DNA from: Muricea muricata
Taxonomy: Eukaryota; Cnidaria; Anthozoa; Malacalcyonacea; Plexauridae
Length of the DNA: 64,000 nt
Reading direction: 5' to 3'
Assembly: GCA_963855995.1 (NCBI GenBank)
Contig: OY979725.1
Location: 13,000,383 to 13,064,382 of the forward strand
Shown here: positions 706 to 58,971 of the stretch, piece by piece
How positions within the stretch are numbered: the first letter of the stretch is position 1
Layout: the number at the start of each line of letters is the position of its first letter
Program-made: the position numbers and the translations under genes
The notes under the pieces: generated by a model
Seen by the model: only the letters and a program-made list of their open reading frames with translations
Database searches by the model: none
Told to the model about the DNA's origin: nothing

Positions 706-709
706 TGCA

Positions 710-5576: not shown

Positions 5577-6104
5577 TTTAAGATGTTATTCACTTCTTAT
5601 TCTGGTCGTTTCATGGTTTTATTATGCTTGGAACAGTATAAAATGGAACAGCCGCCAGCCGCGCAGACCCTGGGAACGAGGCTGAGATATGATAAGCGGA
5701 TCCCATTGATCCCATATGATTGATCCACACCGACCAGTTTAAAAGGCCACACATCAGTTAACTATGACAGAATAATTGCTTTCGTTGCACAGTTTTGAAA
5801 TTAAGTTAATTTACATTTATCCTGAATTATCCATTCTTCAATTTCTCTCAAATGTCCATTCAATTGCTCCACAACGTCAGCCATTGTTTGACAAGTGTTT
5901 CGGAAACTGTGCGTAACCATGACATCTTCTCGTATTCTGGCTTGTTTCCGCCAGACTCTGCTGGTAGCAAGTCCAGGTGAATGAACATGTCTAGTGATGT
6001 CAGGTTGTTACAATGAAGATGGAGCGAGCTATGGTGGAAATATATGAAATGTGAGATTTTTCCGCAAGACATCTCTTAGATAACTATGATTATTTTTAAC
6101 TAAA

Positions 6105-6175
6105 TTTATTTATACTGGATAGCTCTATCAGTTTTAAACTGTTCTTCCTAGAGGTCCAGTAAGGATCATTTTCAC
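6105..6175 (-). repeat. Dispersed repeat fragment (same family as 38563-38845)
   Basis: The minus strand reads ACTGGACCTCTAGGAAGAAC, then an A-rich gap, then ACTGATAGAGCTATCCAGTAT. The same order of blocks occurs three times in tandem at 38563-38845 on the plus strand. Confidence 0.65.
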
Positions 6176-6476
6176 AAATAGAAATTATAGAAATTATCTT
6201 GACTTCTTCTCAACTGCGTATATGTTTGATCACATGAAAAAACCCCCAAAAATTAGGGTGAAGGAAATAAAATTGTGTAGGTTTTAAAAGCTTGACTGCC
6301 CACTGCAGTGGGATGATTTGGGCTATCAAGCCACAAACACATCTTGAATTTCATCCAAACTCTGACATCTAAAAAAAAATAAAAATATCGGTTGGGCGGG
6401 CAATCGTTCTTAGATTTTCAAAGCCGAGTTATGAGTTAAGTAAAATGTTCATGGCCATACGTTTTTGCCTTTCGTA

Positions 6477-6752
6477 CGCAATGACGTTATCTGTGATCTA
6501 TTACAGTACAGAAACAGGCAAAAATAAGATTGACTTGATAAATTTAGCAAGCGTCTCTTCACAATATTATAAAATTATACAAGTATGTTGGAGTAATCCA
6601 CAAATAATGGCAATTTTATTACTAATGTGAATATCATAATCGAAACTGTTTTCATGTTCATGAGGTAGATCAGTTTGCCCTTATTTGACAAAAAGATTTC
6701 GTTTTTGCGGGTGTCTGTACTGTAATAGATCACAGATGACATCATGGCGTCC
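6477..6752. mobile_element. MITE-like inverted-repeat element
   Basis: Arms of about 55 bp (6477-6532 and 6697-6752) share ATCTGTGATCTATTACAGTA exactly and diverge a little outside it. The interior (about 165 bp) is AT-rich and non-coding. No clear target duplication is visible. Confidence 0.65.
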
Positions 6753-16819: not shown

Positions 16820-19759
16820 ATGGCGTTACGAAAATGGAAGGGAATTCTGTTTGCCGTCATTGTAGGATGGATAATAATGCTGGGATATTTTGTTTTGACG
16901 GACTTTAGAAATTGTGGGACTGAGGTGCATCGATTACAAAGGGCTAAACGGGTATTGGACAAATCTAATTTGTACATAGATAAACTACAAGCGGAGATAA
17001 AGTCGTTAAAGCAGGTAGTAGAAAGCCTTACAAAGAGCTGCAAGAAAAAATGTCCGCCTGTAAGATCCCTTCCCGAACCGGTGAAGAAGCTCAAAAGAAC
17101 GCCTAACCCGTTAAGGACGACGGAATATTTTTACACCAAGCGAAAGGAACGCGGGGATAGAAGCGAGGGGGGTAAAAACGTAATTGTACATGAATTGGAA
17201 TTTCAACCAGAAGCTCCTAGTTTGCAACTGGAAATAACCAGGCGAAGAGCTTCGAAAGAACTTCGTGAAATGTGGTATTATCTCAGCGCCGAAGTGACAA
17301 AAATTAACAAACTTTTAGGAAGTTCTCTCAAAGAACGACTCACAGGAATGCTCGATAATTTTGCTGACATTCATCGAGCTTTGAGTAATAACTTAGACAA
17401 AATAAATAACCAGGACGCTTTGTTAACTTGGCGTCAACAAGAACAAGCCAAGCTTAGCAAACTGGTACAAAACCGCTTGAGGCGCTTGCAGAATCCAGGA
17501 GACTGTAACTCGGCTAGAAAACTGTTGTGCAACCTGAACAAAGGCTGCGGATACGGCTGTCAAGTGCATCATCTGTTATACTGCTTTATAACTGCGTATG
17601 GCACCAAACGAACATTAATTATTGAGTCCGAGCAATGGAGATATTCGAGTAAGGGCTGGGAGGGGTCCTTTTTGCCCGCGAGTGATACTTGCACTGTCGC
17701 TAAAGAATCAGCGGCGATCTGGTCTACCGACTCTGACAGACACAAGAACGTGCGTCTACCTATCGTGGATGGTATATTCCCCCAACCGAAACACTTACCC
17801 CTCGCCGTACCCGCGGATTTAGTAGAACGAATCCAGTCTTTCCATGGATTCCCCTTTGTATGGTGGATTGGACAATTCGCTAAATACTTGTTTCGATACC
17901 AGCCTGAAGTACAGAAGGAAATAGATCAGAAGAAAGCCAAGTTAGGTTTTCAGACTCCTATCGTTGGGTAAGTTAGTACGTTGTCGGCTAGTGTTGTGTG
18001 ATATACAGGCCAAAACGCCACAGACTAATTGTTGCAAGTTGTCGATTTTAACAAACTTCTTAATTTCATCAAGTTACAAGAAGTCTGTTAAAACCATTGT
18101 ACCTATATAATACTAGAATTGTACACGAATTTTTAAACTTCTAATTAGTTTAATTTTCCATTCGTAATTTAAAGTTTCTGTCTTATATTAAACTTTGTAT
18201 ATACTTACTCCTAACTTATTTAAGTACAGATTTTATGTGGAAAAAAACAATGCTGCATTTTCTCGCTAAAACACGCAGCCAAAACATATACTACTACTTT
18301 TTAGAAGTTCATATAAGTTTGTATTATCCAAGAATTCAGCAGGAATTCAGTTTGCAGGGATTATTTAGCGTCTTGTTAATAATTTAAACATTGTGCCCGA
18401 TGCTAGCGACATGTTTGAAGGGTGTTACCTGACCTTATAAGCCGATAACCTGCCAAGACATTTTATAGGCAATTTATGTGATTAGGATTAAATGGTTTCC
18501 ACTATTTATGAATATTTTGCAGGCTTCACGTTCGTCGTACAGATAAAATCAATGTCGAAGCGGCTTATCACTCCATTGAAGAGTACATGTATTGGGTAGA
18601 TTTGTATTACAAGAAGCTTGCTATGACACAACACATACGGCAAAAGAACGTATACCTGGCTTCGGACGACTCCGCCGTTTTAGCTGAAGCTAAGAAAAAG
18701 TGAGTGTTTGACGAGGACAATATTCATGATAATTCATGAATGGAATTTTCAGAACTGATCAAAACATCATCCAGTCTTAAGACTTGATAAAAACTTCATT
18801 CAATCCCAAGACCTGATAAAAAAACTACATTCAGTCCTAAGACTTGATAAACATCTAAACCCAAGAATTGATAAATACTTTATCCAGACCCAAGACTTGA
18901 TAAATACTTCATCCAGTGCTAAGACGTGATAAAAATTTTATTCAGTCTTAAGACATGATCAATCATTCATCAGTATCAAATTTGGTAATCTCAAAATGTA
19001 CATATATCCACTATCATGTAGATATCCCGAGTACAACTTTGTAAGTGATAACGAGATCTCGAAATCGGCTGGAGTTTATGAACGGTACACTGACCAATCA
19101 CTCCATGGAATTATTTTTGACATTCAAATACTCTCCGAATGCGACTACATTGTCTGCACATTCTCCTCGCAGGTAAAGTATAAACTAAGTATATCCAGAC
19201 ACGTCTCAAAGTAATACTGCACTGAAAAGCACACAAAAGCATAGGATCTCTCACTACCTGAACCGATATAAACAGTATTTGAGGTTTCGAGCAAAAGCCT
19301 TTTATTTTTAGCAGTTAACTTTCTGACGAAGGTCGTTTTCTTGAAAGGTTGGATTTGCGCACATACTACGCTAAAACAAGCAATCAGGTCCTATAAGCAA
19401 TCAGGTCAAATTGCACATCATACCTTACAATTTAGGTGTGTCGAACAGCGTACGAGATGATGCAGGCAAACTCGGCCACTGATGCGTCAGAAAGAGTTCA
19501 GTCGCTTGATGACGTGTACTACTTCGGTGGCCAATCAGTTAACGACGTACAGGCTGTGTATTCTTATCGAGCTAAGAATCCTGAACAGATTGACATGAAG
19601 TCTGGCGACAGATTGAAAATTGCTGGCAATCATTGGGACGGCTATTCAAAAGCAACGTCTAAAAAAACTCAAAGAGTTGGATTATTTCCATCTTATTTAG
19701 TCGAGAAATATGTTCATGTTGTTGAATTCCCTGATTATTCAGACTTTGATATACAATGA
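16820..19759 (+). CDS. FUT8: Alpha-1,6-fucosyltransferase, FUT8-type (4 exons)
   Basis: Golgi type II membrane enzyme that adds core fucose from GDP-fucose to the innermost GlcNAc of N-glycans. Exons: 16820-17967, 18523-18699, 19022-19172, 19436-19759, closing to 599 aa (human 575). A short cytoplasmic end (MALRKWK) precedes one transmembrane segment (about residues 8-28). A coiled-coil stem follows, then the catalytic domain: [41 protein letters not shown], the donor-binding LHVRRTDK across the exon 1-2 junction, [28 protein letters not shown] and [10 protein letters not shown]-terminal SH3-like domain ([35 protein letters not shown]) is typical of FUT8. Intron 2 carries a minisatellite, and the 3' UTR starts with a pyrimidine-rich repeat. 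Confidence 0.97.
18740..18975 (+). repeat. Minisatellite in FUT8 intron 2
   Basis: Seven or eight degenerate units of about 27-32 bp with the core CCAAGACTTGATAAATACTT and CATCCAGTC. It ends shortly before the acceptor of exon 3. Confidence 0.8.
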
Positions 19760-24425: not shown

Positions 24426-26493
24426 TTTTATAAAATGTGGATTTTTCACCTCCGTTTATTTTAAAACTTGAAAAACCATTGTTTCAGCCAAGATTGGTTT
24501 AACTTTGCATTAAAGCCATGGTTTAATGTAAAATAAGCGGAGACATGCTTGGGCATGTGTTGTCTTTATGTAAACAAGGGAAATTTTAAACTTAATTAAC
24601 ATTCACTGTCAGCACTGCATGAACACCATAGATAACCTGAGTTCCGGAACTCCCAGATTTTAAATCGATAAGGAACTCCAGAAGTCACGAGATCAGAAGT
24701 TCAGGTTTTATATTGTCCCATCTAGTAAAATCCACGACCCAAATAGCTGAAGGTCCCAGTCAACACTTACTTACAAGACAAAGCCCATGTATAGAAGATT
24801 TTGCCGTCGTGTACACCTCAAAGTTCAAACCGTCCTGAAGATTCAAGGTACTCCTGTACAAATTATATTTTGTAGAGCTTTTAGCAACCTTCAAGAAGAT
24901 GGGCGATTTTTCAAAAAAAACAACCAACCCGCACATTTATTAAAATGGTATGGTACGGTGTTGCAATAGTTTGGTACAGTATAGCTCCTGTAGCAAAAGT
25001 GTGTCATTAAGGGAACTGTATTCCAACAGATGGTTCATTTTATTTGTTTATTTGACATCGACAATGGTCAATTGCAGTGACAAAAATGATGAAATAATAA
25101 CCGTTTTACATGCAAGTGTAAAAATATCATGCCAAATACTGTAATTTTAATCCTGCAGGGCCATCGATGTTTTGATTTTATTTAAAACTATATTTTCCTC
25201 ATCATCCATTCTTTGGCCTCTCATATTGCACGTTCGACTACATCGCCGACGTCAAACTTAACTGAATTAGCTTTAGTTCGGCGACCTACCCACAAAGGTT
25301 TGACGGTGCATTGGCAATTTTATCACTATCAGAGCATAGATTTATGTATGCGCGCGCGGTCTTTTATATACTGCATTGGAAAAGAGGTTATGTGAGACAG
25401 CCGCGCAAAGCTGATAACAAGTGTAAGAGCAATGAATCTCATCAGGTATAGATTAACTCTACTCAAGAAATAATCGTACAGTTAATCCGATTGTTTGTTT
25501 TTAACGTTTTCATGTGATCTTCGAGATATCACAAAGCGATCACGCGGCCAATGTGGAGCTAGAAAGATACGTTTCTGTGCTCTAGCTGAACTTTTACAAT
25601 TATACAAATCATTGCTGTTTTGCTTGCCATGTATGCGCGTGCATTGAATATCCCAGAAATGTAAGGTTTCAGTCAAATGAGATTTGCTTGTATAAATTTA
25701 AATAGGCCGATATAAACACCAGCTTTCATCAGAAGACTCGTCAGAAGACAGACCTCATTCGCTTTATTTGTGAAAGTCAACGAGTGAGAGTTTCATTGGT
25801 AATAGAGCTACTAAAGTCAATACACTTGAATCTGGCAGCATAGATCATGCTCATTAATGCTTTTCAAATGCCTCTGTTTCGTACGAGCGCGACAACGCAT
25901 GAATTATCGACCGCGTTCACAAAAGTGTCAGCGTTTTTGTTGATCCAAACTGAATCAACTATACCTGCATACATAAAAGCTCATATGCGTTATGTTTTAA
26001 GGCTGATTTTGAAGACTCTCTGAGCATTTCACTGTGGCTTGTATACGATTAGTTCTTCTTCAATGCAGACAAACCATAACTAGTATAAGGCGCTAGAAAG
26101 CGACGGGGCTTCTGCTAAAGAATTTGCGCTTTTCTCAAATTCTCGTAAAAGATTATAAATGATGCAAGGGAGGATAAAGTTCATTCGTGACAGGTTGCAG
26201 GAAAAAATGCAGGTAGAAACAAAGCCTCGAGAAAATCACTTATTGATATAATCGTTCCTCGGTAATAAAGCGTACGAATAACTCATCACTTAAATATCGA
26301 AATGCTTAATACGGCGGCACTGGCTTGGGATGATTGTATATGCGGTGAATTAGAGTATCATGCGTCATAGTTTATCACATTATGCGTATATTCATCAGTT
26401 GTTTGTCTATAGTTTGTGACCGGGAGCGCCATCCAACTGTTTTCCTAATTAGGTCTAATTCCTTGGTATCTATTGCAGTTCCCGAAGCGAGTT

Positions 26494-28550
26494 ATGGGAA
26501 ACATGGTACAGCTAGTGCAAATTATTGAACTCGTTGCTGTTGGAGTAATTTTCTTCTTTGGCATAATATGTAACTGCATCGTTATTCGCAGTATCTGTCT
26601 GTCACGGAGCATGCGAACATCGATCTTGTACAACATAAAGAATGACTGTACAAATCTGCTCGTCATGAACCTAGCCATAACAGATCTCCTTGTTCTACTC
26701 GTGAGCGTCCCGATGGATATAGTGCCGGAACATCTTTCGTGGCCTTACGGCATCTTTGTTTGCAAAGTTTTTTCACCGATTCAAGATATATGTTTAACGG
26801 CGTCGACTCTCACATTCAGTGCCATTGCGGTCGAACGTTATTTGGTTTCCAAGGGGACGGCACACCAGGGACTCCGTAATGCGAAATTGGTAAGAAAAAT
26901 AAATCTCGACTTAATTATACTAGATAGCTCTATCAGGACAACAAGAGTTGCAATTGACGTCATGGTGTGGCAGTGCGACGCGGATGTTGGTAAGAAATGT
27001 CAAAGGAAGGAAATGGTTATTTTCTTTAGGTCATGTTTGCTCCGGTATTCTCGTCCTAACCTAATGGAAAATACATTTTAAACGCTGGAGAACAGTCTAG
27101 GTTAGCCTCTAGAAAGTAATCAGAACAACTGCTCTAAGTACACAGAAAGAAGTGAAACAGAAAGAATGGAAAATGAATCTATATGAATAGATATAACATA
27201 TGAATAAACTAAACCTATGTTGAATTTTCGAAAATGCCGCACAACTTAGTTTTTTTTCGCTTTCCCAAACACAACCTTGGCCAAAATGTGCGTTGGCACA
27301 TGCTCCAGTATACGTCATATCCCTTTTCTCCGAAAATGGCCAAGTAAATCGTATTACATACACGCACAAACTAATGGCTGCTTTCCAGTTTTATACTCGC
27401 GTGCACGCACGTATAAGTTGAAACCCTTCTAAGTATTTTGCATTTAACAAATAGAATTACTAAATTACACTGGCTCTTACCGAATGCTGAATTCTCTCCA
27501 TCAAAACATTTGTTTATTTCAAATGCAATATTGAAATTGATTTTGAATTTTACGTGCGTGTATACGTACGTGTGAAAAACACTTAAAACGAAAACAGCCT
27601 TGTTAAGGTCGCAATTATGAGGCAGTTATGATGGTCAGTAACGAGTGACGATGAAATGCGACGATTCTGGATAAAGCAGAACAAAAAAGATTATTATTAT
27701 CATTAACCTCATATTTACTCAGGATATCCACACAATCGAAGTGTTTTTCATTGGGGTCTTGCATGATAGTGACTTGTATTGTCATTCTAACGACTTTCAA
27801 AACCATCTCGTCTATAAACTGGTCAGACGACAACATAAAATAGACCACAACATTGAGAGCGGGCAAGTCATTTATTTCTTATTTCTGGCAGTATCACATG
27901 CATGTCGAGCATCAAGATCTGTGCCTAGGATTGTAAATATACGTTTTATTATATTTTTCTACACATTCTAGATTATCGCTGGCATATGGATCACATCGTG
28001 GCTCACAATGGGCCTACCTATGGCAATCTACAAAGAACTCATTACAGACGACCACAGGATCGAATGCGATGTCGTCTGGCCAAACAAATATGTCGCAAAT
28101 CTCTTCTTGTTTTATATGATCGTACTGGTCGGCGCATGCGCACTCACCGGCCTAATTGCATACTGTAAAATCAGACGGAACCTCGCTAGAGTTCAACAAC
28201 TCTGCGAAAATCAACAACCAGACATGAACGTCGATCAAAAGAGCTTGGACTCACTGGCCGAACAAGTTTTGCAGATTTCAAATCTCATTTGCATTCTGAC
28301 GACCGTGTTTGTCTTTTGCACTTTTCCATTTCCGTTATTCGTGGTGCTACTTGAATCCGGAGTTCTCGTAAACTATCGGTATAACTATGTCGTATACCTG
28401 GCCACATCGTGTTTGCTCTATGGGAACTCTCTCGCTAACCCGCTCTTGTTAATGTTCATGAGCAGAGACGCTCGTATTGCGCTCGTCGATTACAGATCAC
28501 CTGCTCGACGCATTGACGCCGCAGAACATATAGGGATGGAGGACGTTTAG
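26494..28550 (+). CDS. Rhodopsin-class GPCR, peptide-receptor-like (2 exons)
   Basis: Seven-transmembrane receptor, ligand unknown. Exons 26494-26889 and 27972-28550 join in phase 0 to give 324 aa. The first ATG is at 26494 (MGNMVQ). A TTGCAG just upstream looks like a splice acceptor, so the real 5' end may lie farther up. TM1 ends GIICNCIVIRS and TM2 has NLAITDLL (Asp 2.50). TM3 has the disulphide Cys in WPYGIFVCKVF and the E/DRY variant VERYLV. The intron cuts at the start of TM4 (IIAGIWITSWL). The ECL2 partner Cys is in RIECDVVW. TM5 is FLFYMIVLVGACALTG, TM6 has FCTFPFP instead of CWxP, and TM7 has GNSLANPLLLMFM, so the NPxxY tyrosine is lost. Overall it looks like a neuropeptide-type receptor; no closer assignment is possible. 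Confidence 0.85.
27374..27600. repeat. Weak inverted repeat in GPCR intron
   Basis: Both ends carry GGCTG(C/T)TTTC..GTTTTA followed inward by a CGTGCACGCACGTA-like alternating purine-pyrimidine stretch, in inverted order. Possibly a decayed MITE. Confidence 0.35.
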
Positions 28551-28715
28551 GAATATTGCAGGACGTTTATGAGCGTTGAAGGATGTTTCGGAACGTTGAA
28601 GGATGTTTAGGAACGTTGAAGGATGTTTAGGAATGTTGGAGGAAGTTCAGGAACATTGAAGATAGTTTAGAAAGCTCGGAGATGTTCAGGAACATTGGAG
28701 AATATCTCACGGAAA
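28545..28715 (+). repeat. Minisatellite starting at the GPCR stop codon
   Basis: About eight units of 20-22 bp with the core GGACGTTTAGGAACGTTGAA. It begins inside the last codons of the GPCR frame (GAGGACGTTTAG), so the stop codon is part of the first unit. Confidence 0.85.
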
Positions 28716-29324: not shown

Positions 29325-32300
29325 TTATAAAATATTTACCCACAATGCTATTAAACTCGCGAGAACCAGCAGCCTTGAAGCTGCCCGGCTGGCGCACAAG
29401 TTGTATGTGCATTTCAAGTCAATATCTCTCAGTTTTGGACAGGTCTGTTCGCTTGCATCACAAGGGGCGGGGTCGATATGTTTGCAAGTTCCATTCACTA
29501 TCCGGTAGGCTCCAGCATCAAACACCTGGTTGCTAATGCGACAGTTGAAGTTATAAAAATAAGACTGACGATATCGTGTCCAGTTTTCGATAACAAGGAG
29601 GAAAAGGTTCGTTCTAGGTAAAGGCGTGAAAAAATAGTTGCCACTCGTGCAAGGACCCGACGAATTGCCAGTATAGAAGTCTTTCTCTAAATAAAAATAA
29701 CGTCTTTTAGCAAAGGCGATAGGTTTTTTACGATGAAAACAATTGGTTAAAGATTGCTTGTTTAGTTAAATGCACGATTCTTGCACGAGGCAAGTCAAGG
29801 GCCTGATTGAGACCAATAAAAATATAAGACTATTGAACTTATTAGAGTTCACTTAGAGTTTGTAGGCGATAAATGGTTGTTTTCAACATTTGGAGTATTG
29901 TTAATGATAAAAGTGAACTGCTATTTAAAGTGACAAACAATTGCTACCTTTAGTGGCCGTGTAGCCAATTACGTCTTGAATGCAACCATATTCATTTTGA
30001 AATGGAGGAATGGGTCCTCTGTTACGATAATATTCGTCCTCCTCTTCTGGCGTCTGAATGATTCCTTCTAGCGTCACCTACCATCAGAAAACATATCATA
30101 AATCCTTGGTCTGATGAACTCTTACACGCACCAGATTAATTTGTTTTGAAGAGAAGAGAATTTTGGGTGGATGCGATACCTTATTCCTGAAGAATAAAGA
30201 ACGTCATCTCCGATGACGTTCAATAGAACGCAAGTCTAAATTATGTTATGTCAAAATGTTACCTACCTACACCTTCTCGACAATATCACTCCAGCTCTGT
30301 ATTAAGCATAACTAATCTCTTCTTTTGTAATGTCTGTACTCAGCTTTTCTACAATTCATTTCAATACACCTCCTAGCCAACCTCGCCTTCTCTACAATAC
30401 CTTCTTCCACTTCGCATCTTCTACTCATCAGCTCTGACTACCTTTACTTCGTTGCTTTGTACCACACGGTCTTCTAAGCTCAATTCACAGAGGTACTTTC
30501 TTGATTGCCTCTCATCTCATATCCATATCAATTCAGTCTTGTGCTCAGTATTCACTACATCGCATCTTATCTTATTGCCTTAAAGCTACAAGCTTGCGGG
30601 GTCGTTCATTTAGGTTAATATTAAGTATACTACAAAATAACTCACATACATGGAAAGCACAAGGTCACATCCACTCGACGTATTCTAGGAATATACTGTT
30701 CTGTAACCTTTCTTTATTAAGCAGCCAAAATGGTATGCGCATCCTAGGCAATCGTCTATAGAGGAGACTTCAACGTGGTTGTGAAAGATTGGTTCATGAT
30801 TGGTTCAGAAGGTACTACACTGTAACGTAACCTCTCAAGGACATAGAATCGCAGTAACAACCACAACTTAAGCGCTATTGTCTTTTTTGTCTTGAACTGA
30901 CATAATCCCCTGGAAATACACTGTGGTAATGGCACTGAAGCCCTGACACCATTCACAACATACTCTAAAGTGACCCATCATGTTGAAAGACTCGGCGACA
31001 GTTTCAATCCACTTAAATCGCCAATAACAACTAGGTTTTGTGAAAAAACTGATTGGTATTGGTGAGTATAACTAGAGTGAAAAATACCCAATTCTGCGTC
31101 TTGTCTCCGCTTTCTCCAATGCAACCAGACAAAGCGAACGCATAACTTGTCAATGGTGGAAGCAGAATCCAATGTAATTTACGGCCCACCTTGCTATTCA
31201 AAATGTTTCTCCAAAGCAAAAAATTCTTAATTTATAACTACAAAGATCACTTTGTTGAGTTTCTATATTAGTGGAAACCAAAAACGTCGGAAAATAGGTC
31301 CCAGACCGTTCCCTAACCCTCTTCACAAAAGCAAACAACGAAAAAATCGGGGGGGAGGGGACCATCCTCTCTGGCGCCAGGTCATTAACCTGATCATACC
31401 TATGATCTGAAGATTGTGTTACTATCGAAGATGATCGACCGAAACACTATTGCGACATCATTACAATAAAATCTAAACCTACCTTAGGAAAATACGGCGA
31501 CACACTACAGATTCCTTGGTAATCCAAGTGTCGAGTCTGTTTGAATGCGTTCATCTCGAGTACAAGCTGTTTCATGATGTCACCTTCCTTTCGCCCCAGG
31601 GACACCCTCTGATACTCTCGTTCGTCTGTTATATTCGCCTCCAGAAAGTCTGGATCTGTAACTAAATTCGCCGCACTGTCAACAAGGTAACATCTAAATA
31701 AAAAACATGTGGAGCGTTTAAATAAAAGCAAGAGAGATTACAGACTTAATGAAAGTCAGTAAGGTTTAAACCCTAAATCTGGCCCAAATTAAAGTTAATC
31801 CGGCCGGATTTAGGGTTATTCCGGTCGGATTTCGGGCTAATCCAGCCAGAATTAAGGTTTATCCGGCCGTATTTAGAATTAAATCCGACCGGATTAACCC
31901 TAAGTCGGGCCGGATTTAACCCTAAAACGGACCGGACTAACCCTAAATCCCACCGGATTTAACCCTAAATCCGACCTGATTAACCCTAAATCCGACCGGA
32001 TTAACCCCTAAATCACCCCGGATTTAACCCTAAATCAAACCGGATTAACCCTAAATCCGACCGGATTAACCCTAAATCCAACCGGATTAACCCCTAAACC
32101 CCACCGGATTTAACCCTAAATCCGACCGGATTACCCCTAAATCCCACCGGATTACCCCTAAATCCAAGGGGATTAACCCTAAATCCCACCGGATTTAACC
32201 CTAAATCCGACTGGATTAACAATAAATCCAAGGGGATTAACCGTAAATCCGACCGGATTTAGGGTTAATCCGGTCGGAGTTAGGGTTAAATCCGGTCGGA

Positions 32301-35300
32301 TTTAGCCCTAAATCCCACCGGATTTAACCCTAAATCCAACCGGATTAACCCTAAATCCGACCGGATTAACCCCTAAATCCAAGGAAATTAACCCTAAATC
32401 CCACCGGATTATTCCTAAATCCAACCGGATTACCCATAAATCCGGCCGGATTTAACACTAAATCCGAGGGGATTAACCCTAAATCCTGCCGAATTAACCC
32501 TAAATCCGAGCGGATTAAGCCTAAATCTGCCCGGATTTAACCCTAAATCCGACTGGATTAACAATAAATCCAAGGGGATTAACCGTAAATCCGAGAGGAT
32601 TTAGGGTTAATCCGGTCGGATTCAGGGTTAAATCGGGTCGGATTTAGGGTTAATCCGGTCGGATTTGGCCTGCTAAATCGGACTGCTAAATCCGACCGGA
32701 TTAACCCTAAATCCGACCGGATTAACCCCTAAATCCCACCAGATTTAACCCTAAATCCGGCCGGATTTAACACTAAATCCGAGGGGATTAAGCCTAAATC
32801 CGGCCGGATTTAACCCTAAATCCGGCCGGATTTAACCCTAAATCCGACTGGATTAACAATAAATCCAAGGGGATTAACCGTAAATCCGACCGGATTTAGG
32901 GTTAATCCGGTCGGATTTAGGGTTAAATCCGGTCGGATTTAGCCCTAAATCCCACCGGATTTAACCCTAAATCCGACAGGATTAACCCTAAATCCGGCCG
33001 GATTTAACACTAAATCCAGGTGGATTAACCCTAAATCCCGCCGGATTTAACCCTAAATCCGACTGGATTAAGCCTAAATCCAACCGGATTTAAGGTTAAT
33101 CCGGTCGGATTTAGGGTTAATCCGGTAGGATTTAGCCCTAAATCCGACTGCATTATCCCTAAATCCGACCGGATTTAACCCTAAATCCCACCGGATTTAA
33201 CCCTAAATCCGACCGGATTACCCCTAAATCCCACCGGATTACCCCTAAATCCAAGGGGATTAACCCTAAATCCCACCGGATTTAAGCCTTACTCCGACCG
33301 GATTAACCCTAAATCCGGCCGGATTTAACACTAAATCCGAGGAGATTAACCATAAATCCCGCCGGATTAACCCTAAATCCGACTCGATTAACCCTAAATC
33401 CGACCGGATTAACCCCTGAATCCGACCGGATTTAACCCTAAATCCTGCCGGATTAATCCTAAATCCGAGCGGATTAAGCCTAAATCTGCCCGGATTTAAC
33501 CCTAAATCCGACCGGATTTAACCCTAAATCCGACCGGATTAACCTTAAATCCAATCGGATTAACCCCTAAATCCCACCGGATTTAACACTAAATCCAGGT
33601 GGATTAACTCTAAATCCCGCCGGATTTAACCCTAAATCCGACTGGATTAAGCCTAAATCCGACCGGATTTAACCCTAAATCCGACCGGATTTAACCCTAA
33701 ATCCGACCGGATTTAACCCTAAATCCGACAGGATTTAACCCTAAATCCGACCGAATTAAGCCTAAATCCGATCGGATTAACCCCTAAATCCCACCGGATT
33801 TAACCCTAAATCCGACCGGATTAACCCTAAATCCGGCCGGAGTTAACACTAAATCCAGGTGGATTAACACTAAATCCCGCCGGATTTAACCCTAAATCCA
33901 ACTGGATTAAGCCTAAATCACACCGGATTTAAGGTTAATCCGGTCGGATTTAGGGTTAATCCGGTAGGATTTAGCCGATAATCCGACCGGATTAACCCTA
34001 AATCCGACCGGATTTAACCTTAAATCCCACCGGATTTAACCCTAAATCCGACCGGATTACCCCTAAATCCCACCCGATTACCCCTAAATCCAAGGGGATT
34101 AACTTTAAATCCCACCGGATTTAACCCTAAATCCGGCCGGATTTAACACTAAATCCGAGGGGATTAACCCTAAATCCCGCCGGATTTAACCCTAAATCCG
34201 ACTGGATTAACAATAAATCCAAGGGGAATAACCGTAAATCCGACCGGATTTAGGGTTAATCCGGTCGGATTTAGGGTCAAATCCGGTCGGATTTAGCTCT
34301 AAATCCCACCGGATTTAACCCTAAATCCGAGCGGATTAAGCCTAAATCTGCCCGGATTTAACCTTAAATCCGACTGGATTAACAATAAATCCAAGCGGAT
34401 TAACCGTAAATCAGACAGGATTTATGATTAATCCGGTCGGATTCAGGGTTAAATCCGGTCGGATTGAGGGTTAATCCGGTCGGATTTAGCCCTAAATCCG
34501 ACCGGATTAACCCTAAATCCGACCGGATTAACCCCTAAATACCACCAGATTTAACCCTAAATCCGGCCCGATTTAAAACTAAATCCGAGGGGATTAACCC
34601 TAAATCCCGCCGGATTAACCCTAAATCCGAGGGGATTAAGCCTAAATCCCACCGGATTATTGCTAAATCCCACCGGGTTTAACCCTAAATCCGACCAGAT
34701 TAACCCTAAATCCGACCGGATTAACCCCTAAATCCAAGGGGATTAACCCTAAATCCCACCGGATTATTCCTAAATCCCACCGGGTTACCCATAAATCCGG
34801 CCGGATTTAACACTAAATCCGAGGGGATTAACCCTAAATCCTGCCGGATTAACCCTAAATGCGAGCGGATTAAGCCTAAATCTGGCCGGATTTAACCCTA
34901 AATCCGACTGGATTAACAATAAATCCAAGGGGATTAACCGTAAATCCGACAGGATTTAGGGTTAATCCGGTCGGATTTAGCCCTAAATCTGACCGGATTA
35001 ACCCTAAATCCGACCGGATTAACCCCTAAATCCCACCGGATTTAACCCTAAATCCGGCCGGATTTAACACTAAATCCGAGGGGATTAACCCTAAATCCCG
35101 CCGGATTAACCCTAAATCGGACCGGATTAACCCTAAATCCGACTGGACTAACCCCTAAATCCCACCGGATTTAACCCTAAATCCGACCGGATTTAACCCT
35201 AAATCCGACCGGATTTAACCCTAAATCCGACCGGATTTAACCCTAAATCCGACCGGATTTAACCCTAAATCCGACCGGATTAACCCTAAATCCCATCGGA

Positions 35301-38300
35301 TTAACCCCTAAATCCCACCGGATTTAACCCTAAATCCGACCGGATTTAACCCTAAATCCGCCCGGATTTAACCCTAAATCGGACCGGATTAACCCTAAAT
35401 CCGACCGGACTAACCCCTAAATCCCACCGGATTTAACCCTAAATCCGACCGGATTAACCCTAAATCCCACCGGATTTAACCCTAAATCCGACCGGATTAA
35501 CCCTAAATCCGACCGGATTTAACACTAAATCCAGGTGGATTAACCCTAAATCCGACCCGATTTAACCCTAAATCCGACTGGATTAAGCCTAAATCCAACC
35601 GGATTTAAGGTTAATCCGGTCGGATTTAGGGTTAATCCGGTAGGATTTAGCCCTAAATCCGACTGGATTATCCCTAAATCTGACCGGATTTAACCCTAAA
35701 TCCGACCGGATTAACCCCTAAATCCCACCGGATTTAACCCTAAATCCGGCCGGATTTAACACTAAATCCGAGGGGATTAACCCTAAATCCCGCCGGATTA
35801 ACCCTAAATCCGAGGGGATTAAATGGATTTATTGTTAATCCAGTCGGATTTAGGGTTAAATCCGGCCGGATTTAGGCTTAATCCCCTCGGATTTAGAGTT
35901 AATCCGGTCGGATTTAGCCCTAAATCCGACCGGATTTAACCCTAAATCGGACCGGATTAACCCTAAATCCGACCGGATTTAACCCTAAATCCGAGGGGAT
36001 TAAGCCTAAATCCGGCCGGATTTAACACTAAATCCAAGGGGATTAACTCTAAATCCCGCCGGATTAACCCTAAATCCGAGGGGATTAAGCCTAAATCCGG
36101 CCGGATTTAACCATAAATCCGACTGGATTAACAATAAATCTAAAAGGGTTAACCGTAAATCCGACAGGATTTAGGGTTAATCCGGTCGGATTCAGGGTTA
36201 AATCCGGTCGGATTTAGCCCTAAATCCGACCGGATTAACGCTAAATCCGACCGGATTAACCCTAAATCCGACTGGATTAACCCCTAAATCCCACCGGATT
36301 TAACCCTAAATCAGACCGGATTAACCCTAAATCCGACCGGATTAACCCCTAAATCCAAGGGGATTAACCCTAAATCCCACCGGATTATTCCTAAATCCCA
36401 CCGGATTACCCATAAATCCGGCCGGATTTAACACTAAATCCGACCGGATTTAACCCTAAATCCTACCGGATTAACCCTAAATCCGACTGGATTAACCCCT
36501 AAATCCCACCGGATTTAACCCTAAATCAGACCGGATTAACCCTAAATCCGACCGGATTAACCCCTAAATCCAAGGGGATTAACCCTAAATCCCACCGGAT
36601 TATTCCTAAATCCCACCGGATTACCCATAAATCCGGCCGGATTTAACCCTAAATCCTACCGGATTAACCCTAAATCCGACCGGATTAACCCCTAAATCCC
36701 GCCGGATTTAACCCTAAATCCGACCGGATTACCCCTAAATCCCACCGGATTAGCCCTAAATCCAAGGGGATTAACCCTAAATCCGGCCGGACTTAACCCT
36801 AAATCCGACCGGATTAACCCCAAATCCGGCCGGATTTTACCCTAAATCCGACCGGGTTAATCCCAAATTCCACCGGATTTAACCCTAAATCCGACCGGAT
36901 TGACCCTAAATCCGGCCGGATTAACTTTAAATTCGGTCTGATTTAGGGTCAATCTGGCGGGATTTAACCGTAAGTCCGACCGGATTAAGCCAAAATCCGG
37001 CCGGATTAACTTTAAATTCGGCCGGATTTAGGGTTTATCTGGCCAGATTTAGGGTTAATGTGGCCGGATTTAGGGTTAATCTGGTCGGATTTAGGGATAA
37101 TTCGGTCGGATTTAGGGTTAATCCGGTCGGATTTAGGGTTAAATTCGGCCGGATTAACCCTAAATCCCGCCGGATTAACCCTAAATCCCGCCGGATTAAC
37201 CCTAAATCCCGCCGGATTAACTTTAAATTCCGCCGGATTAACACTAAATCCGGCCGGATTAACTTTAAATGCGGCAAGATTAACCATAAATCCGGCCAGA
37301 TTAACTTTAAGTCAGGCCGGATTTAGGGTTAATCTTTCAGTTAAAGTTTTTTTTGGTGTTACTCTCGTCTATACATTTTCACAGGGAAAGCTAAAAATAA
37401 GCCTGGGTCGGTGGGATCTAAACCCTGACCTTTGGAAAGCCAGCCCCATGCTCAGCCAACTGAGCTACGCGGCCTGGTCGGTTTGAGTGAGTATAATTCA
37501 GAATCTAAAACTGTGTTCCTTCCATATCAACATAACATTATAGTGATAGTAAACTCTCGCAGATTTCGCCCCATGCCTTCCCCCATCTCATACCTCGTCT
37601 CACAAGTGTGAACTCCATCAGGACATAAGTAAGTGTTTCCACATGCCTTCTCGTCGCCACTTGCTTTCAATCGTTCATAAATTTCTTTGTGAAAATCTGG
37701 ATACTTAATATCCAATGCGACAACAGCCTCTACATCTCCCGTGCAAGTGCCATCACGACAGTAACGAGACAAACACTCGCTATGACTGAAGAAAATATAC
37801 AATGACTGAACTGGACGAATGCTTTAGAGGCTGAGAAAGGACATGACAGCAATATGTCAACCTACGGTAGCAGAATTTGCGCAATGCAAGTCAAGACTCT
37901 ATTATAGGTTATAAGAGTTCGCACGAAAGACGCAAGTAGAACGCAAGCGGTTACAGAACCTAAACACAATTTGAACTAAGTTCAGGAGAGTTGACTAAGG
38001 TTTGTGGTTAAAAGTTAGGAAGAGTCTCAACTGTCGAGGAATCGATTTGTACAGAGTTTTAAAAAATGACTTACTCCTTGCATCTACAGCCTCCATGTTC
38101 TCCCGTGCAGTCAACATTCGAGTACTCGTTTTGTTCAAACACAGCTTGAGAGATCGTGATCACTTTGCCAATGCCATTCAGGTCCATGTAAGCGTTCGAC
38201 ACAGAAATCTTGGAAGGATTCACGATCGTTCTGTGGTACCACGGACGTCTATATCATAACAGAACCAGATTGACAACTTCATGAAGAAGCCAGCCACACA

Positions 38301-41300
38301 GAGGGATTCATTAGGCGAGCTCTGTGCAATCATAATATCAAGAAAATCGACTCACTACGTACCTCGTGGGGTCAAATGTTTTTGGAAATCTATGCCCAGG
38401 ATAGCTTCTAAATGTTCCTCGGGTTGTTGCTACGTATGTCCAGCGTACATCTTTCAAAATTGTCTTATTCCTCGCTATCCAGGCTGATTCGATCGGTGCA
38501 GTGAGAAGAACATCAGACCTGTCGACAAAATAACCGATTAGGATCATAATTTAATTAAAACAATCCTTACTGGACCTCTAGGAAGAACACTTCACAACTG
38601 ATAGAGCTATTCAGTATAAATACAGTTAGTTCAGTTTAGGTTTCCTGCTGAAGTAACACTCGATCAATAAGAAAGGATCCTTAAGATCTCTAGGAAGAGC
38701 AGTTCAGAAATGATAGAGCTTCCAGTATAAGTTTAAGTTTCCTACTGCAATAACATTAGATCAACAAGATATGATCCTATTGAACCTCTAGGAAAAACAG
38801 TTAAAAATGACAGAACTTAGTGACACTGGATCAATACTGAAGAGATAATCATTACTGCACATCTACGCTTCGTTCCACAAAACAGTCATAATTTTAAAAC
38901 ACCATGAGCCCACCTGACACTTCCTGGCAGTAATGTACCAGCCTCGGTACATTCTGCAGAATTATTCAGATCATTTATGAGCTTATGAATATCCACCGTT
39001 AAATTCGTGAAGCTGTCGTTAAATAAATATCTATTTGGATCGCAAAATGCTCGGGCTGGGATGAACACGGATGAATGATTGCGAGAGATGTAAAGTTCAG
39101 GATAGTCTTGGACGTTGTATTGTAAATCCAGGTCGTCAAACAAAGGACCAAGTTCCTGTAGAAAAAGTTGAAATAAGAGTCAAGAAGCGAGAGTTAGCAT
39201 GACATTTTCCGGAACAAAGAGCGCCTGTGAGAGGTGAGTGAAACCTAACAAGCGTATTCTTGGCCAGTATTCTTTGCAGACTGCTATTCATATTCCTACT
39301 TGACAAAAAAAGAACGTCGCAAATTACGTCGTGTCTTTTTCCCTAGCAAAGAGCTTTGACGCAAAATCGCACGTCAATCAAAGAAATGAAATGGAAACGC
39401 AGGCTGAAGCGCTAATGGCATCCGTGATACACTTTGCTTTGAGACTCTGTAACTTCAGTAACATGATATATTTCAGGACTTTGTGTTTACATATTTTTTT
39501 ACAAGAACGGCAATTTCTGTGGAACTATCGACTTTTAAACAACGCCAATGTTTTGGTAAACCAATTTAACCAACATGAAATGACAGATATTTCTTAAGTC
39601 CAAAAATTCAATGTTGAATTTGTTATGCCCAAAAAGCTAGGGGTTTTACAGGTAAACATGGACAGTTACATATTACACATTGTCGTTCTTGTTTAAAATA
39701 TAAATTCAAAATACAAAATCCTGGATTATATTCAAAGCGAAGTAAGAATGTCAGTAACGAGTAGCGTGCAGGCTGTATCACGGGCGTAGAATCAGTAACA
39801 TCAGCACTTTAGTCTTTGTTTCCAGTACCTTTCTTTACAGAAGAATCCAGTCATGAAGGTACCTATTCCATACCTCGCGTACATAACTATCATTGTACGA
39901 CTTCAGATATCCATAATAGCTCCTCGGTAAACTCTCGATGGGCTGTCCCGGCTTCTCGGGTCTTCTGTATTCTAAATCAGAGTCTGTGAAACTGAACGCA
40001 AAGGAATAACTGGAGTCTGGTATCCCCGAATAAAAATACGTCACAGGTGTTTTGATGTATTCTACGCCATCTTGGAAATCTCCTTTGGGCAGAGCCCTGT
40101 CGCCCTTTTCAATGCGTTTGGAACCAGTTTTTCCTGCTTTCATTTCTTTAACTATGTCACCAAACAGATCCGTGGCTTCATCTTTGCCAGCTTTTTGTTC
40201 TAGTTGACTGATGTCAACAAATATCGGATCATCGACCAACTGCAAAATACAAATACAGTATTTTCACTATTTTGCAAAATAATGTCACCAATCGGGTCCA
40301 TAAAGTGTATATATGATGCGAATTTTTTTATTTCCTAGTTGGAAAGATCTTTTAAAACCGCATCACAATATCTTTTGCAATTTTTTATTTCTTTTTTTCA
40401 AACTTGAGATGTCTTAATCTCTTTAACTTTTCACTTACAAACATAAACATGTGCGTAACTTCATGCGCAGACATCACTTTGGATTGTTTAATAATTATAC
40501 AGCAGCTATAATAATTATTAGTAGAATCATACTGGCACACTAATGCAAATGCTGTAAATTGATTGGCTAACATACTCGCTATCTATTGCTCGATAGATAG
40601 CGAGTAGAAAAACAATAATTTCCCTGGCGTATTTCTTTCAATTCAAAGACAATATGTAGTATTATTTTTAAGAAAATGGCTGAGTCGATTTTTTATCCCA
40701 GATTCTTCAGGCTTCGCCCTCATCATCACCGCATAGAAGTTGAGAGCGAGTAATGTAATTGTTAATTATTCATCGTGACGTCACATCGTTTGCAATGAAA
40801 AGCTCAAACAAACTAAATATCTCAAGTTAAAAGAAAGGAAATGAAACACTGCAAAACGAGTTGTTGTACAGTTTTAATAGATCTTTTTAACCACGGAATA
40901 AAAAGATCTTAAGCTTTCCGATATTTTTTTTGTTTCTGACACGCACCTGTGTACTGGGTCTTAACAAAGGATGGAATATTGTCTCGCCGTCATTGTTAAT
41001 AAGAAATGCGTACGCAGAACCCCACGTGTAACCGGTCAAAATGTTCTCAATTTCTTCCAGGGTGACATCGACACCAATCACACCAATGGTTCTGAAACAT
41101 AAAATATACTGCGCATAAAAATCCACTAAGAACCATGAAAAAATGACAATTTGTACATGTTAAACTAAATTTTAAACAATTTATTAAAAAATACATCAAT
41201 CACCATCGCTAGAACGAACATAGTAAAACATAGTGAAACCACAGAATAGACATAAACAGAAGAACCACTCAGCAGCGGAACATGTCTCCCTATTTTTATG

Positions 41301-44300
41301 CAATTGACTGGCCAGAATAATGGCGGAACGGCCTGTTCAGCGTTCCTATTGGCCAGAAAAGGCAATTGACTGGCCAGAACCTGCATAATGAACATGCGTA
41401 ATGCGACATGCGTTGAGACACAAACTTCAAAGGTTCCGACTCGAGTGGTCCTTCTGTTTATTTCTATTCTGTGGTGAAACTACAACGTTTGGTGACGAAA
41501 TGTTGTAAAATGTAGAAAATATAGCCCAACAAAGATTGCACATTTTGTATATGTTTGAATTACGCACGGCAATTGTTACCATTTTAGGCTCAAAATTTCT
41601 AGCATTTCGCCACCAAATTTTGCAATTTTACGATCATGGTTTTTTTATCGGGAATCTTCTTTTGCCCATACTAGCCAGAATACTCTACCTGTTCGTCACA
41701 ACGGGAATTGCGGCGGTTACCATTAACCCGAGTCCTAAAGCATCCAGATAAGGTGGACTCCACGTGATGGTCGCAGTGGACTGGGTATTAGCTGTTAGAA
41801 AGTCGTAATAGTCTTGCATCTGGCTGATAAGATTCGTACTTTCCACAATTTTCTTCATAAATCCTCGATTATCACACGCCAACTTGCCTGGAAACTCTTC
41901 CCCATCGTCAACGACAAGATAAGAAAATATTCTAGTCTAGTGGAGAGAGAACAGTCTGTCAATCTGCAAAACCTTGTAAAAATACCACCCTGAAATAGCA
42001 AGCAAGGTTTGAGCCTAGGCCAGCAAATGGTGCATTTTGCCAGACTTTTTCATTCAACTCCACCACGATTCCCAGCTGCACATAGTCTCAATTAAAGTGC
42101 TTGCCCAAATTCAGTGTTTAGGCTTTTCCTCTTTCTCCACAGCTTCATCGCCATTTGCTAGGGCCGCACAAAAACAACTCAAAACTCTCAGTCTAACATA
42201 AATTTTCAACTTGAAACTACAGATTGAACTATTAAGTGTTAGCAGTGTATAGAAATTCAGGGCAACCCCCCCCCCCCCCTATGCCAATAGACTTTGGTAA
42301 ATCAAATCAAATCTGAAACAATCCATTACCTACCTGTTGTGTATTCCATGTTTTGACATTGTCCCACACGATATTCCAATCATACTTGCATTTTTCCCCA
42401 GCGACATAGCCACTACGTGTATGGTACCCTTTCTCACAGCGCACCTTGTCGCCATCCGTGTCCTGCCCGTCCGTGATAAATACTATAAAGGACTGGCAGC
42501 AAGTGCCCCTTTTACCTTTCAGTAACTCAAAAGATTTTTGAAAAGCATCGCTGAAAATAATGACAAAAATGGGTGAAACTTGTGCATGTGCCCAGTACAT
42601 GTACTGGTATCCTCAGCCACGATTGTCAATAATCACAGTTATTATTGATGTAACATTCAGATAACTACAAATACCTACTTCAATTTTGTCGCTCCTTTGG
42701 CTTGTAACTCTTTAATCTTTGCGATAAGATCTTTACGGTGTGATGTCGATGCGGGCACAAGATGATTTTGCTGACAGCTCAGTACCCTTGTGTGTACGTC
42801 CTTGATATGCCTTTGAGGAAATTAAATATTAATAGCGTAGGTAGAGCTGAGAGCAGACTTTTAGAGAAAAGGAATTGTTTTACTTTGCTTACTTCCCGAC
42901 TTCATCATAGTACGGTTCCTGTCCACAGACCACATTAACATAATCTTGTTTGGTCAAAGTATTGAGAACAGTAATTGCAATTGACTTGGCCATATTAAAT
43001 TTCGTCCCCGACATGGACTGACTGCAGTCAATGACGATGACTACATCTTTTGGTCCTGACGTTGCTGCAATATACCAGGGTCTTACACGAGGGTCATAAT
43101 CTTGGTAGAACCCGGCAAAGTTTGTCTGCCACTCGCGTCCCGGGTACATTCGGTATAGACCATTAATTGAGCCAAAATACTGCCACCTGTAAAAAGTGAC
43201 CAGTCTAATTTGTACACAAATAGTTTTATCAATTTTAAATCTACCTGGCCTATTCTTTCCAGGCTGTTATAGGTGTACTACAGTAAATGTTTTGTTTGGG
43301 CTTCACAGTAGTCAAGATTAAGTCTGAGAAAAGATGCTGGGTACAAATTACAATCAATTAACACTCACTCCATACAAAAATGATAAGAACATAGAATCTC
43401 TATACCTCAGATCAGAGTCATTATTTAAATTTTCCACAAAGATCTTATCTAGTCCTGAACTCCATGCAATTGTATCTATAGTTTCCCGATCGTCTCTTGG
43501 AGTTTGATCAGAGATCTTCACAGAGCTCTGTACCCGGCTTATGTTTTGCTTGAATAACCTGCAAGAAATCAAGGTCTAAAGAATGGAAGACAGGAAAAGA
43601 ATTTTCATAACAAACCCATACACAAAGACAAAGATTCAGCAGTGAGTTACTCTCGTGTACTTACGCATCATATTTTGGTGCAATGACAGGATTGTACTTT
43701 TGCAGGTCAGCATCTGAGTAAACATGCGATGGCAAGTCCCTAACTGATTTCGCATCTTCAAAGGTGGTCTTGTTTAGTGATGTAAACAAATTGGCCGTCT
43801 CTTCAGCCAAGATCTACAACAGGACAAACAATGTCTGCCGATTACTGTAAGTTTCCAAAACGTAACCACAGAAAGGTCCCAAGATGTTCCCTGGAGTCAC
43901 TTTCTACATGCAACTTTAGGAAATAATTTAAAACTTCACACAAACAACTGAATAGGTATTCTTTCACACGAAACATCATTTTCAGCTGCTTAAAATGCAT
44001 TGCAAGAAATTTTCAAAATTTTACCCATGGTCCTTTATGTAATAGTTCAAATATGAGGAACTCGGCTTCGCCTTGGACTGGAACGAACTCCCCCTACTTG
44101 AAATTCCGGTAAGGTCCTCTGTCAAGTAACTGACTTCTCAAACTCATCAATTATGCAATTCAAAGTACTGGTACCTTGAAAAATTTCAAACTACTGGTAC
44201 ATTGAAAAATTTCAATTTCAAATCCGCCACCTGCTTTTAAGACACTTTTCCTCTAGTTTCAAAACACTAATTAAATACGTATTTCTTTTGAATTTCATTC

Positions 44301-47006: not shown

Positions 47007-58971
<11,965 letters not shown>

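Follow-up and report, generated by a model that had tools for sequence, protein, structure and literature searches.

Minisatellite arrays of an octocoral genome with linkers that switch orientation in register, studied from an array in an intron of an alpha2delta-family gene

The window analysed here, a stretch of 64,000 nucleotides from the octocoral Muricea muricata, contains exon pieces of a gene for a VWA_N/VWA/dCache protein of the alpha2delta-CACHD1 family, and about 95% of one of its introns is occupied by a minisatellite array with approximately 259 copies of a 21/22-bp unit (Table 1). This agrees with the original prediction that a unit of 20-22 bp fills nearly the whole of a 5.9-kb intron. 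The joined exons had CACHD1 as their best solved match (4.3e-31), followed by alpha2delta-1 (7e-25); when a single-exon protein was used as query against the PDB no match was obtained. Judged by these comparisons the host gene encodes a VWA-Cache member of the alpha2delta family that over the joined exons is closer to CACHD1 than to alpha2delta-1, and the predicted label of a calcium-channel subunit calls for caution.

The array was called by TRF at 31880-37325 (period 21, 254.8 copies, 78% matches, score 5030), with an extra row at its left end (31794-31895), and was confirmed by a decomposition into cores, in which 256 of the 258 core-core distances were 21 or 22 bp. Each unit consists of a 14-bp core, near-palindromic as had been proposed, and an asymmetric linker of 7-8 bp that occurs in either orientation (219 linkers in plus, 36 in minus and 3 unclassified). 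By the repeat call and the decomposition the array is a minisatellite, i.e., a tandem repeat with a unit of 10-100 bp, of mixed orientation and not strictly head-to-tail. It is CpG-rich in an AT-rich setting, as predicted, with a CpG observed/expected ratio of 1.36 vs. 0.83 and a GC content of 45.5% vs. 37.6% in the rest of the window. Transitions at CpG were more common than at neighbouring C or G positions of the units, which fits, as indirect evidence, with past germline methylation.

Fourteen inverted blocks were counted along the array, seven of them within a composite marked by GACTGGATTAACAATAAATC, which occurs exactly seven times. It is followed by AAGGGGATTAACCGTAAATC, exact in four of the seven copies and with substitutions in three, and the inverted block begins 37 bp downstream of the composite start in all seven. 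A second recurring composite, grouped by eye, accounts for three further inverted blocks. Both the recurrence of inverted units throughout the array and the sevenfold composite with its inversion had been anticipated from the sequence.

Table 1. Features of the host gene and the minisatellite array in the window (positions count from the first nucleotide of the window).
Feature	Position	Strand	Basis
Host gene region, VWA_N / VWA / dCache protein, alpha2delta-CACHD1 family	31447..43575	-	exon pieces; ends approximate
Host-gene intron, ~5.87 kb	31696..37557	-	approximate splice ends, by eye
Minisatellite array, 259 cores AATCCGRCCGGATT at 21/22-bp spacing	31766..37323	.	TRF repeat call, core decomposition
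Left-edge block, 5 inverted linkers	31776..31895	-	linker-orientation map
Composite copy 1, GACTGGATTAACAATAAATC + AAGGGGATTAACCGTAAATC + inverted block of 2 linkers	32209..32302	+	exact motif positions, orientation map
Composite copy 2, inverted block of 3 linkers	32551..32665	+	
Composite copy 3, inverted block of 2 linkers	32846..32939	+	
Composite copy 4, inverted block of 2 linkers	34200..34293	+	
Composite copy 5, inverted block of 3 linkers	34372..34486	+	
Composite copy 6, inverted block of 1 linker	34906..34977	+	
Composite copy 7, inverted block of 2 linkers	36121..36214	+	
Second-composite inverted blocks	33077..33132, 33916..33971, 35592..35647	-	grouped by eye
Internal inverted block, 3 linkers, outside both composites	35837..35914	-	
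Lone inverted linker near right edge	36930..36964	-	
Right-edge block, 6 inverted linkers	37015..37155	-	

Multi-unit blocks were duplicated, flips included. In the window array 21 duplicated runs of at least six units cover 165 of the 258 units, compared to a mean of 1.2 for the same run measure in 10 shuffles of its unit order, and such higher-order runs exceeded the shuffles in all 12 segments tested. The arrays at C10:13.87 Mb and C7:14.77 Mb each contain two further copies of the composite with its following inversion, in line with the predicted amplification of a larger module that already contained the inversion.

The COX1 sequence of the host matched at 99% a 168-sequence cluster that carries the name of Coelogorgia palmosa, which supports an assignment at the level of octocoral. 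A search of the host genome for other arrays, suggested along with the original prediction, located unit arrays at about 32 known sites. One 20-mer of the unit has 359 exact copies, and the unit therefore represents a dispersed family that is not unique to the window. The arrays at C3:36.12 Mb and C13:12.32 Mb have a 22-unit run in common (16 edits) and flanks without similarity where these are comparable, array DNA having been copied between sites. The arrays at C7:14.77, C10:13.87 and C14:0.09 Mb were rejected as recent array copies because their homology extends into the flanks, and they were read as duplicated chromosome-end segments. Among the titles and abstract openings listed from open-licence papers, none dealt with this unit or with a similar octocoral array, which does not imply its absence from print. 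The array is a genuine and orderly form of a known kind of repeat, and the family is probably selfish or neutral.

It is extremely improbable that the array is an assembly artefact of collapsed or wrongly oriented repeats. The related array at C14:0.09 Mb does terminate in an assembly gap, but the identical in-register design was seen in 26 segments from 20 sites, the copies at C7:14.77 and C10:13.87 Mb agree at 99%, and an array of 5.5 kb fits within the length of long reads.

The orientation switches were in register in 377/396 cases across these 26 segments, in 26/27 within the window and in 144/156 distinct junctions, where the counts of switches, junctions and blocks are inflated by block copying (386 switches from 19 segments fall into 124 junction clusters). 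Register was kept equally often between unswitched neighbours (2696/2817) and in only 52/387 (13%) of simulated inversions with random breakpoints, which places the inversion breakpoints within the cores. The flips are accordingly bounded by inverted-repeat arms and preserve register, as in template switching. Minority-orientation blocks numbered 236, again inflated by block copying, of which 69 were single linkers and 167 were longer, so that exchange over longer spans may outweigh switching at the fork.

We consider it rather probable that linkers are inverted, with breakpoints in the cores, by template switching or exchange and are then amplified in blocks, within a dispersed selfish or neutral family whose arrays are copied between sites. 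Since the core reads almost alike on either strand, each pair of cores forms a direct and an inverted repeat at the same time. Strand switching in one core and a return in another, at a replication fork or during recombination, would copy the linker or linkers between the two upside down with the register intact. Slippage, unequal exchange or gene conversion would subsequently multiply multi-unit blocks including their flips, giving rise to composites and higher-order repeats. Array DNA is also copied between sites, for which circular DNA as a vehicle is a guess.

Recent template switching at the core might have left an enrichment of palindromes or covariation of the arms. Perfect palindromes were not enriched in the cores at switches (21/194 and 6/192 vs. 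154/1489 and 195/1288 in unswitched cores), and complementary covariation of the core arms was absent, with 108 double complementary changes vs. 116.8 expected. Compensatory upkeep of the palindrome is not supported by this latter count, which likewise offers nothing to suggest that the palindrome is kept up for folding, one of the roles originally proposed for the array. For single flips the reverse-complement distance to the next core was 2.71 (49 distinct flips) vs. 3.16 for 1520 unflipped cases (p=0.015), which might hint at arm homogenisation, in a weak test whose outcome is in part confounded by the orientation of the cores. An alternative source of inverted units would be snap-back (foldback) replication at the palindrome, yielding inverted duplications and macro-dyads. 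The stretch examined of the array at C6:0.65 Mb does form one large dyad of 205 forward and then 172 inverted linkers, unlike most segments, which have a single orientation or many shorter blocks. However, the centre of this dyad is off register and is not the site of its longest inverted run, which has 14 units among the 206 and 177 units compared, and at 88 distinct junctions there was no mirror symmetry outside the core (9.48 vs. 9.64 edits, p=0.21). Together with the lack of arm covariation this makes snap-back replication very unlikely.

An origin as, or seeding by, a transposable element of the MITE or foldback type whose ends contain the unit would account for the dispersed sites, where most of the compared flanks are unrelated. 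The window array has ends that are similar in inverted orientation (99/127 bases), but this is what the repeat unit itself yields, and the 579-bp inverted repeat that encloses the array at C1:79.91 Mb was absent from the other flanks examined. Direct repeats in the flanks of 11 arrays were not above the null in ten (one with a left flank of 9 bp) and marginal in the remaining one (score 15 vs. a 95% null of 14). The edges of 15 entries, some of which had a single true edge, consisted by eye of unit sequence without a common terminus. Neither a target-site duplication (11 arrays) nor a terminal inverted repeat distinct from the unit (15 entries) was therefore found, and the fragments of Tc-like and reverse-transcriptase sequence in the vicinity of two arrays lie away from the edges; we regard a transposon origin as unlikely. 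A suspected transposon end at array edges, TTAAGAGT, was rejected since TTAAGAGTTAATCC occurs mainly inside arrays, and TTAAGAGTGARTACTAGG is a separate abundant element with 163 matches.

As predicted, each intact unit carries a single CCCTAA that is never in tandem. The host telomere is TTAGGG (C6 begins with (CCCTAA)n), and with at most one TAGGGTT per 21/22-bp unit and no tandem TTAGGG the array is not an interstitial telomeric repeat. The intact linker with flanking core bases matches, in either orientation, the telomere-protein consensus YTAGGGTTR, which is described as bound by TRF1/TRF2. Neither this match nor the dispersal of the unit nor the register at the orientation switches was part of the original prediction. 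Perfect matches numbered 123 in the 5.56-kb array (22 per kb) vs. none in the remaining 58.4 kb of the window, the reversed motif was absent from the array, and 1242 of 3278 linkers contain a perfect site. The arrays might hence function as docking platforms for a protein of the TRF/Myb type that binds telomere repeats, a reading to which the distal position of 15 of the 20 known C4-C16 array sites (2 Mb or less from a contig end, p=1.3e-5) also seemed to point. The preference for chromosome ends was weakened by a control transposon, which on C4-C7 is also distal (17/36, p=0.001); the arrays on these contigs are no more distal than the control (4/9), the comparison with the control over all C4-C16 arrays gave p=0.054, and on C1-C3 all 12 known sites are internal. 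The docking reading was downgraded for this reason. The three C positions of the linker are conserved at 78-90% (7-nt linkers) and 83-96% (8-nt linkers), less than the four outer positions of each core arm (94-98%), so that a TRF-type binding role is only putative. The Pfam TRF domain search gave no match in the host, but the control genomes were equally without a match, so that this negative carries no information. We consider functional docking decidedly unlikely, and give a slim chance to a related scheme in which the cores allow YTAGGGTTR to flip: a protein that accepts both orientations would be indifferent to flips, and the family could persist as an extratelomeric sink or boundary for telomere-binding protein while recording template-switch events along the genome.

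Comparisons with known systems refer to the consulted portions of the cited papers. In Saccharomyces, spacers enclosed by inverted repeats are described as inverting through template switching (PMC8604942); short spacers there likewise flip in place between arms of at least 10 bp (the cores here have 14 bp), arms can be homogenised and flips recur at one site. The yeast cases are single isolated inverted repeats in coding DNA with spacers of 2-5 bp, far shorter than the multi-linker blocks here, whereas in the octocoral the setting is a tandem array, any core can serve as an arm, linkers have 7-8 bp, and flips, many of them in multi-linker blocks, persist and become amplified. The human subtelomeric minisatellites HRAS1, CEB1 and CEB25 are enriched toward chromosome ends, and in yeast CEB25 acts according to its affinity for the telomere protein Cdc13 (PMC3486850). 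They are GC-rich, CEB1 with G-quadruplexes, and alternating unit orientation is not mentioned in those portions; the octocoral unit is palindromic, has 45% GC and carries a double-strand TRF-type consensus. The macro-dyad satellites of Tribolium (PMC13081366) are similar in their changes of monomer orientation and recurrent inversion sites, which are 98% conserved, but have an element of about 110 bp in megabase pericentromeric regions with predominantly two subarrays per array, in contrast to the many small in-register flips in kilobase arrays, one of them intronic, of the octocoral. TCAST1 of Tribolium castaneum (PMC5844308, PMC4537270) is likewise a satellite family of which part is scattered through euchromatin close to genes, with another unit and, in the portions consulted, no mention of in-register linker flipping.

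The palindromic unit permits an array to change orientation without losing phase. Spacer flips were found singly in the consulted part of the yeast study (PMC8604942), and the octocoral genome shows hundreds of them in register, so that comparing individuals could reveal how often flips arise, over what range of sizes and by which strand logic, and how they interact with unequal exchange. The match to a telomere-protein consensus, if true, would tie a dispersed repeat to the biology of chromosome ends in a cnidarian.

The minisatellite array was recovered by TRF with a period of 21, ~255 copies and 78% matches; splitting at the palindromic core gave 259 cores, spaced by 21 bp in 143 cases, 22 bp in 113 and another distance in two. 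It lies ~0.86 Mb short of the end of contig C10 (13,900,795 bp), of which the window spans 13,000,383-13,064,382, in an assembly of 453 Mb in 74 contigs, C1 to C74, of which C1-C16 measure 11.6 to 124 Mb and the smaller contigs seen (C17, C18, C20) ≤221 kb each. GC content (45.5%) and the CpG observed/expected ratio (1.36) exceed those of the remaining window (37.6% and 0.83). Outside 31701-37400 the window contained zero cores at ≤2 mismatches (one shuffle: 1) and 12 at ≤3 mismatches, compared with 14 in one shuffle. The array occupies ~95% of a ~5.87 kb intron, its ends set by eye. Exons of the host gene, which lies on the minus strand, have matches to VWA_N and VWA and a weak one to dCache. 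One exon matched alpha2delta-1 (2e-15), and the joined exons matched CACHD1 (4.3e-31) and alpha2delta-1 (7e-25). COX1 on contig C74 showed 99% identity to an octocoral cluster that carries the name of Coelogorgia palmosa; four more octocoral entries followed at 92-96%, and the remaining listed proteins reached ≤84%.

Coordinates of the array and of other features observed in the window, on contigs (C) and in retrieved stretches (L)
Feature	Location	Strand	Remarks
Minisatellite array	window 31766-37323		
Minisatellites with other units	window 8646-8840; 18751-18971; 28540-28670; 49057-49136		TRF; periods 27; 29/58; 20; 27
Rhodopsin-type receptor gene (7tm_1), two pieces	window 26449-27081; 27972-28550	plus	
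Another 7tm_1 ORF	L057:2298-3242		Adjoins C13:12.32 Mb array
tRNA-Ala (AGC)	window 52131-52203	minus	ARAGORN and Rfam
Partial tRNA match	window 3102-3157	plus	Rfam
tRNA-like stretch GCTCAGCCAACTGAGCTACGC	window ~37405-37482		Adjoins right side of array; by eye, without Rfam or ARAGORN call; perhaps a tRNA-derived SINE
Second COX1 match	C1:38414782-38416095 (L073)		One stop codon; contig of chromosome size; probable mitochondrial copy in the nuclear genome
Different tandem repeat	L049:1-755 (left flank)		Adjoins C10:13.87 Mb array; multiple offset matches
Different tandem repeat	L020 right flank		Adjoins C5:6.54 Mb array; multiple offset matches
Stretches between array blocks	L012:~5900-6680; L010:~545-800		By eye; inverted ends GGGGGTCCAATA... 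and ~70-bp inverted repeat; as if elements inserted into arrays
Inverted repeat enclosing short array at C1:79.91 Mb	L009:55-612 / ~2071-2640		579 columns, 89% identity
Element with terminal TTAAGAGTGARTACTAGG	e.g. L049:1009; L046 near 2402		163 matches genome-wide at ≤1 mismatch; often paired, facing outward, few kb apart; on C4-C7 likewise enriched toward contig ends
Subtelomeric repeat with degenerate TTAGGG-like stretches	L077, L078, L079, L081, L093		By eye; common to several contig ends

The array belongs to a dispersed family. Exact copies of the 20-mer AACCCTAAATCCGACCGGAT number 359 across the genome, against none for its reversed control. Pooling several sequence patterns, some with complete listings, gave at least ~32 sites, of which C1-C3 carry 12 and C4-C16 carry 20, a lower bound for which two C4 sites 21 kb apart were merged and neighbouring matches grouped by eye. 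The smallest array, at C4:5.48 Mb, has 3 units (57 bp); a continuous stretch on C5 (L019 and L020) measures ~12.9 kb, and a cluster of matches on C16 extends over ~33 kb.

Of the 32 sites, 20 supplied the 26 array segments on which unit anatomy was determined, the five-unit and three-unit arrays being excluded. Each core arm is conserved at 94-98% in its four outer positions and the centre is variable; the linker between cores is 7 or 8 nt, most commonly AACCCTA or TAACCCTA, and occurs in both orientations. When the bases following an exact AACCCTA were tabulated with the core unconstrained (n = 1297, 21 segments), 8 of 10 outer positions were conserved at 93-98%, and two positions belonging to CpGs fell to 87% and 80%. 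The mean of the four CpG transitions, worked out by hand from the segment tables, exceeded that of two neighbouring non-CpG transitions in 23/23 tabulated segments, by a wide margin in L071 (CA at the first CpG 39%, G11->A 2%) and slightly in L013. This excess is an indirect sign that suggests past germline methylation.

Changes of linker orientation keep the repeat register. Among neighbouring linkers that could both be classified in the 26 segments (209 pairs were unclassified and left out), 21/22-bp spacing was kept on both sides in 377 of 396 opposite-orientation pairs, and spacing was kept in 2696 of 2817 same-orientation pairs. Counting each distinct junction once, 144/156 were in register, whereas inversions with random breakpoints simulated in 60 arrays and classified identically gave 52/387. 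Nearly all inversion breakpoints must therefore fall within sequence that matches its own inverse, i.e., the palindromic core.

Arm covariation was absent (108 double complementary changes versus 116.8 expected, 546 distinct cores), perfect palindromes were not enriched at switch cores (21/194 and 6/192, versus 154/1489 and 195/1288), and mirror symmetry past the core was lacking at 88 distinct junctions (9.48 versus 9.64 edits, p = 0.21). Together these results disfavour both a maintained hairpin and snap-back duplication. The flips would then arise between different cores, through exchange or a switch of strand. Cores flanking single flips were closer to mutual reverse complements than cores flanking unflipped linkers (2.71, 49 distinct flips, versus 3.16, n = 1520; p = 0.015), a comparison confounded by core orientation; this weakly fits the arm homogenisation that template switching between inverted repeats predicts, according to the consulted part of PMC8604942. 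The flips resemble the yeast spacer inversion by template switching described there, but the yeast spacers measure 2-5 bp and the coral linkers 7-8 bp, and 167/236 minority-orientation blocks contain more than one linker, and both points count against carrying the yeast case over unchanged.

The original prediction held that a larger module already carrying the inversion had been amplified. This was borne out and extends beyond the window. Seven of the 14 inverted blocks in the window array begin 37 bp past the marker GACTGGATTAACAATAAATC, and three further blocks lie in a second composite, grouped by eye. Repeated runs (≥6 units, ≤2 edits per unit) numbered 21 and covered 165/258 units, against a mean cover of 1.2 in ten unit-order shuffles; the longest, of 14 units, occurs at 32311 and 34666. 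All 11 other segments tested exceeded their own shuffles, one repeated run on C5 reaching 95 units. The genome contains eight copies of the 26-mer at the core of the composite, four in the window array and two each at C10:13.87 and C7:14.77 Mb, where inverted linkers follow it too. Its presence with the inversion in three arrays indicates that the module is older than their separation.

The arrays at C7:14.77, C10:13.87 and C14:0.09 Mb share DNA that is 99% identical, and since this includes the flanks they are read as duplicated chromosome-end segments. A 22-unit run with 16 edits is common to C3:36.12 and C13:12.32 Mb, and the right flank of the latter resembles neither flank of the former. 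At the array edges examined, no target duplication recurred consistently and no distinctive terminus was seen. Membership places the arrays in a minisatellite family; they do not classify as a transposon in the tests made, nor as an interstitial telomere repeat.

On C4-C16, 15/20 known sites lie <2 Mb from a contig end (27.4% expected, p = 1.3e-5). The complete listing for one pattern placed 11/12 sites within that distance, or 9/10 with three duplicates taken as one (p = 6.5e-5). Human minisatellites, at least GC-rich ones, similarly cluster near chromosome ends, as far as the consulted part of PMC3486850 goes. However, all 12 known sites on the large contigs C1-C3 are internal, and a control transposon on C4-C7 is also distal (17/36, p = 0.001), the arrays there being no more so (4/9; all 20 C4-C16 arrays versus this control, p = 0.054). 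The bias may thus not be particular to the arrays.

The (CCCTAA)n at the start of contig C6 identifies TTAGGG as the telomere repeat. An intact linker with its flanks reads YTAGGGTTR, the duplex site of TRF1/TRF2 in the consulted parts of PMC3408703 and PMC4357705. The motif occurs 123 times in the window array, nowhere else in the 64-kb window, and in 1242/3278 linkers overall. Because conservation is lower in the linker than in the core arms, we treat binding of a TRF-type telomere protein as a testable rival rather than the explanation.

In the literature searched, we know of no described repeat in which flips that keep register, and amplified modules containing them, occur together with a palindromic core and a telomere-protein consensus. 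The array organisation is like that of the Tribolium macro-dyad satellites, symmetries documented in Tribolium alone according to the authors, in the consulted part of PMC13081366; the C6 array shows this shape over its retrieved part, with 205 forward linkers followed by 172 inverted ones. The arrays are real, ordered and informative, and are most likely without a function of their own.
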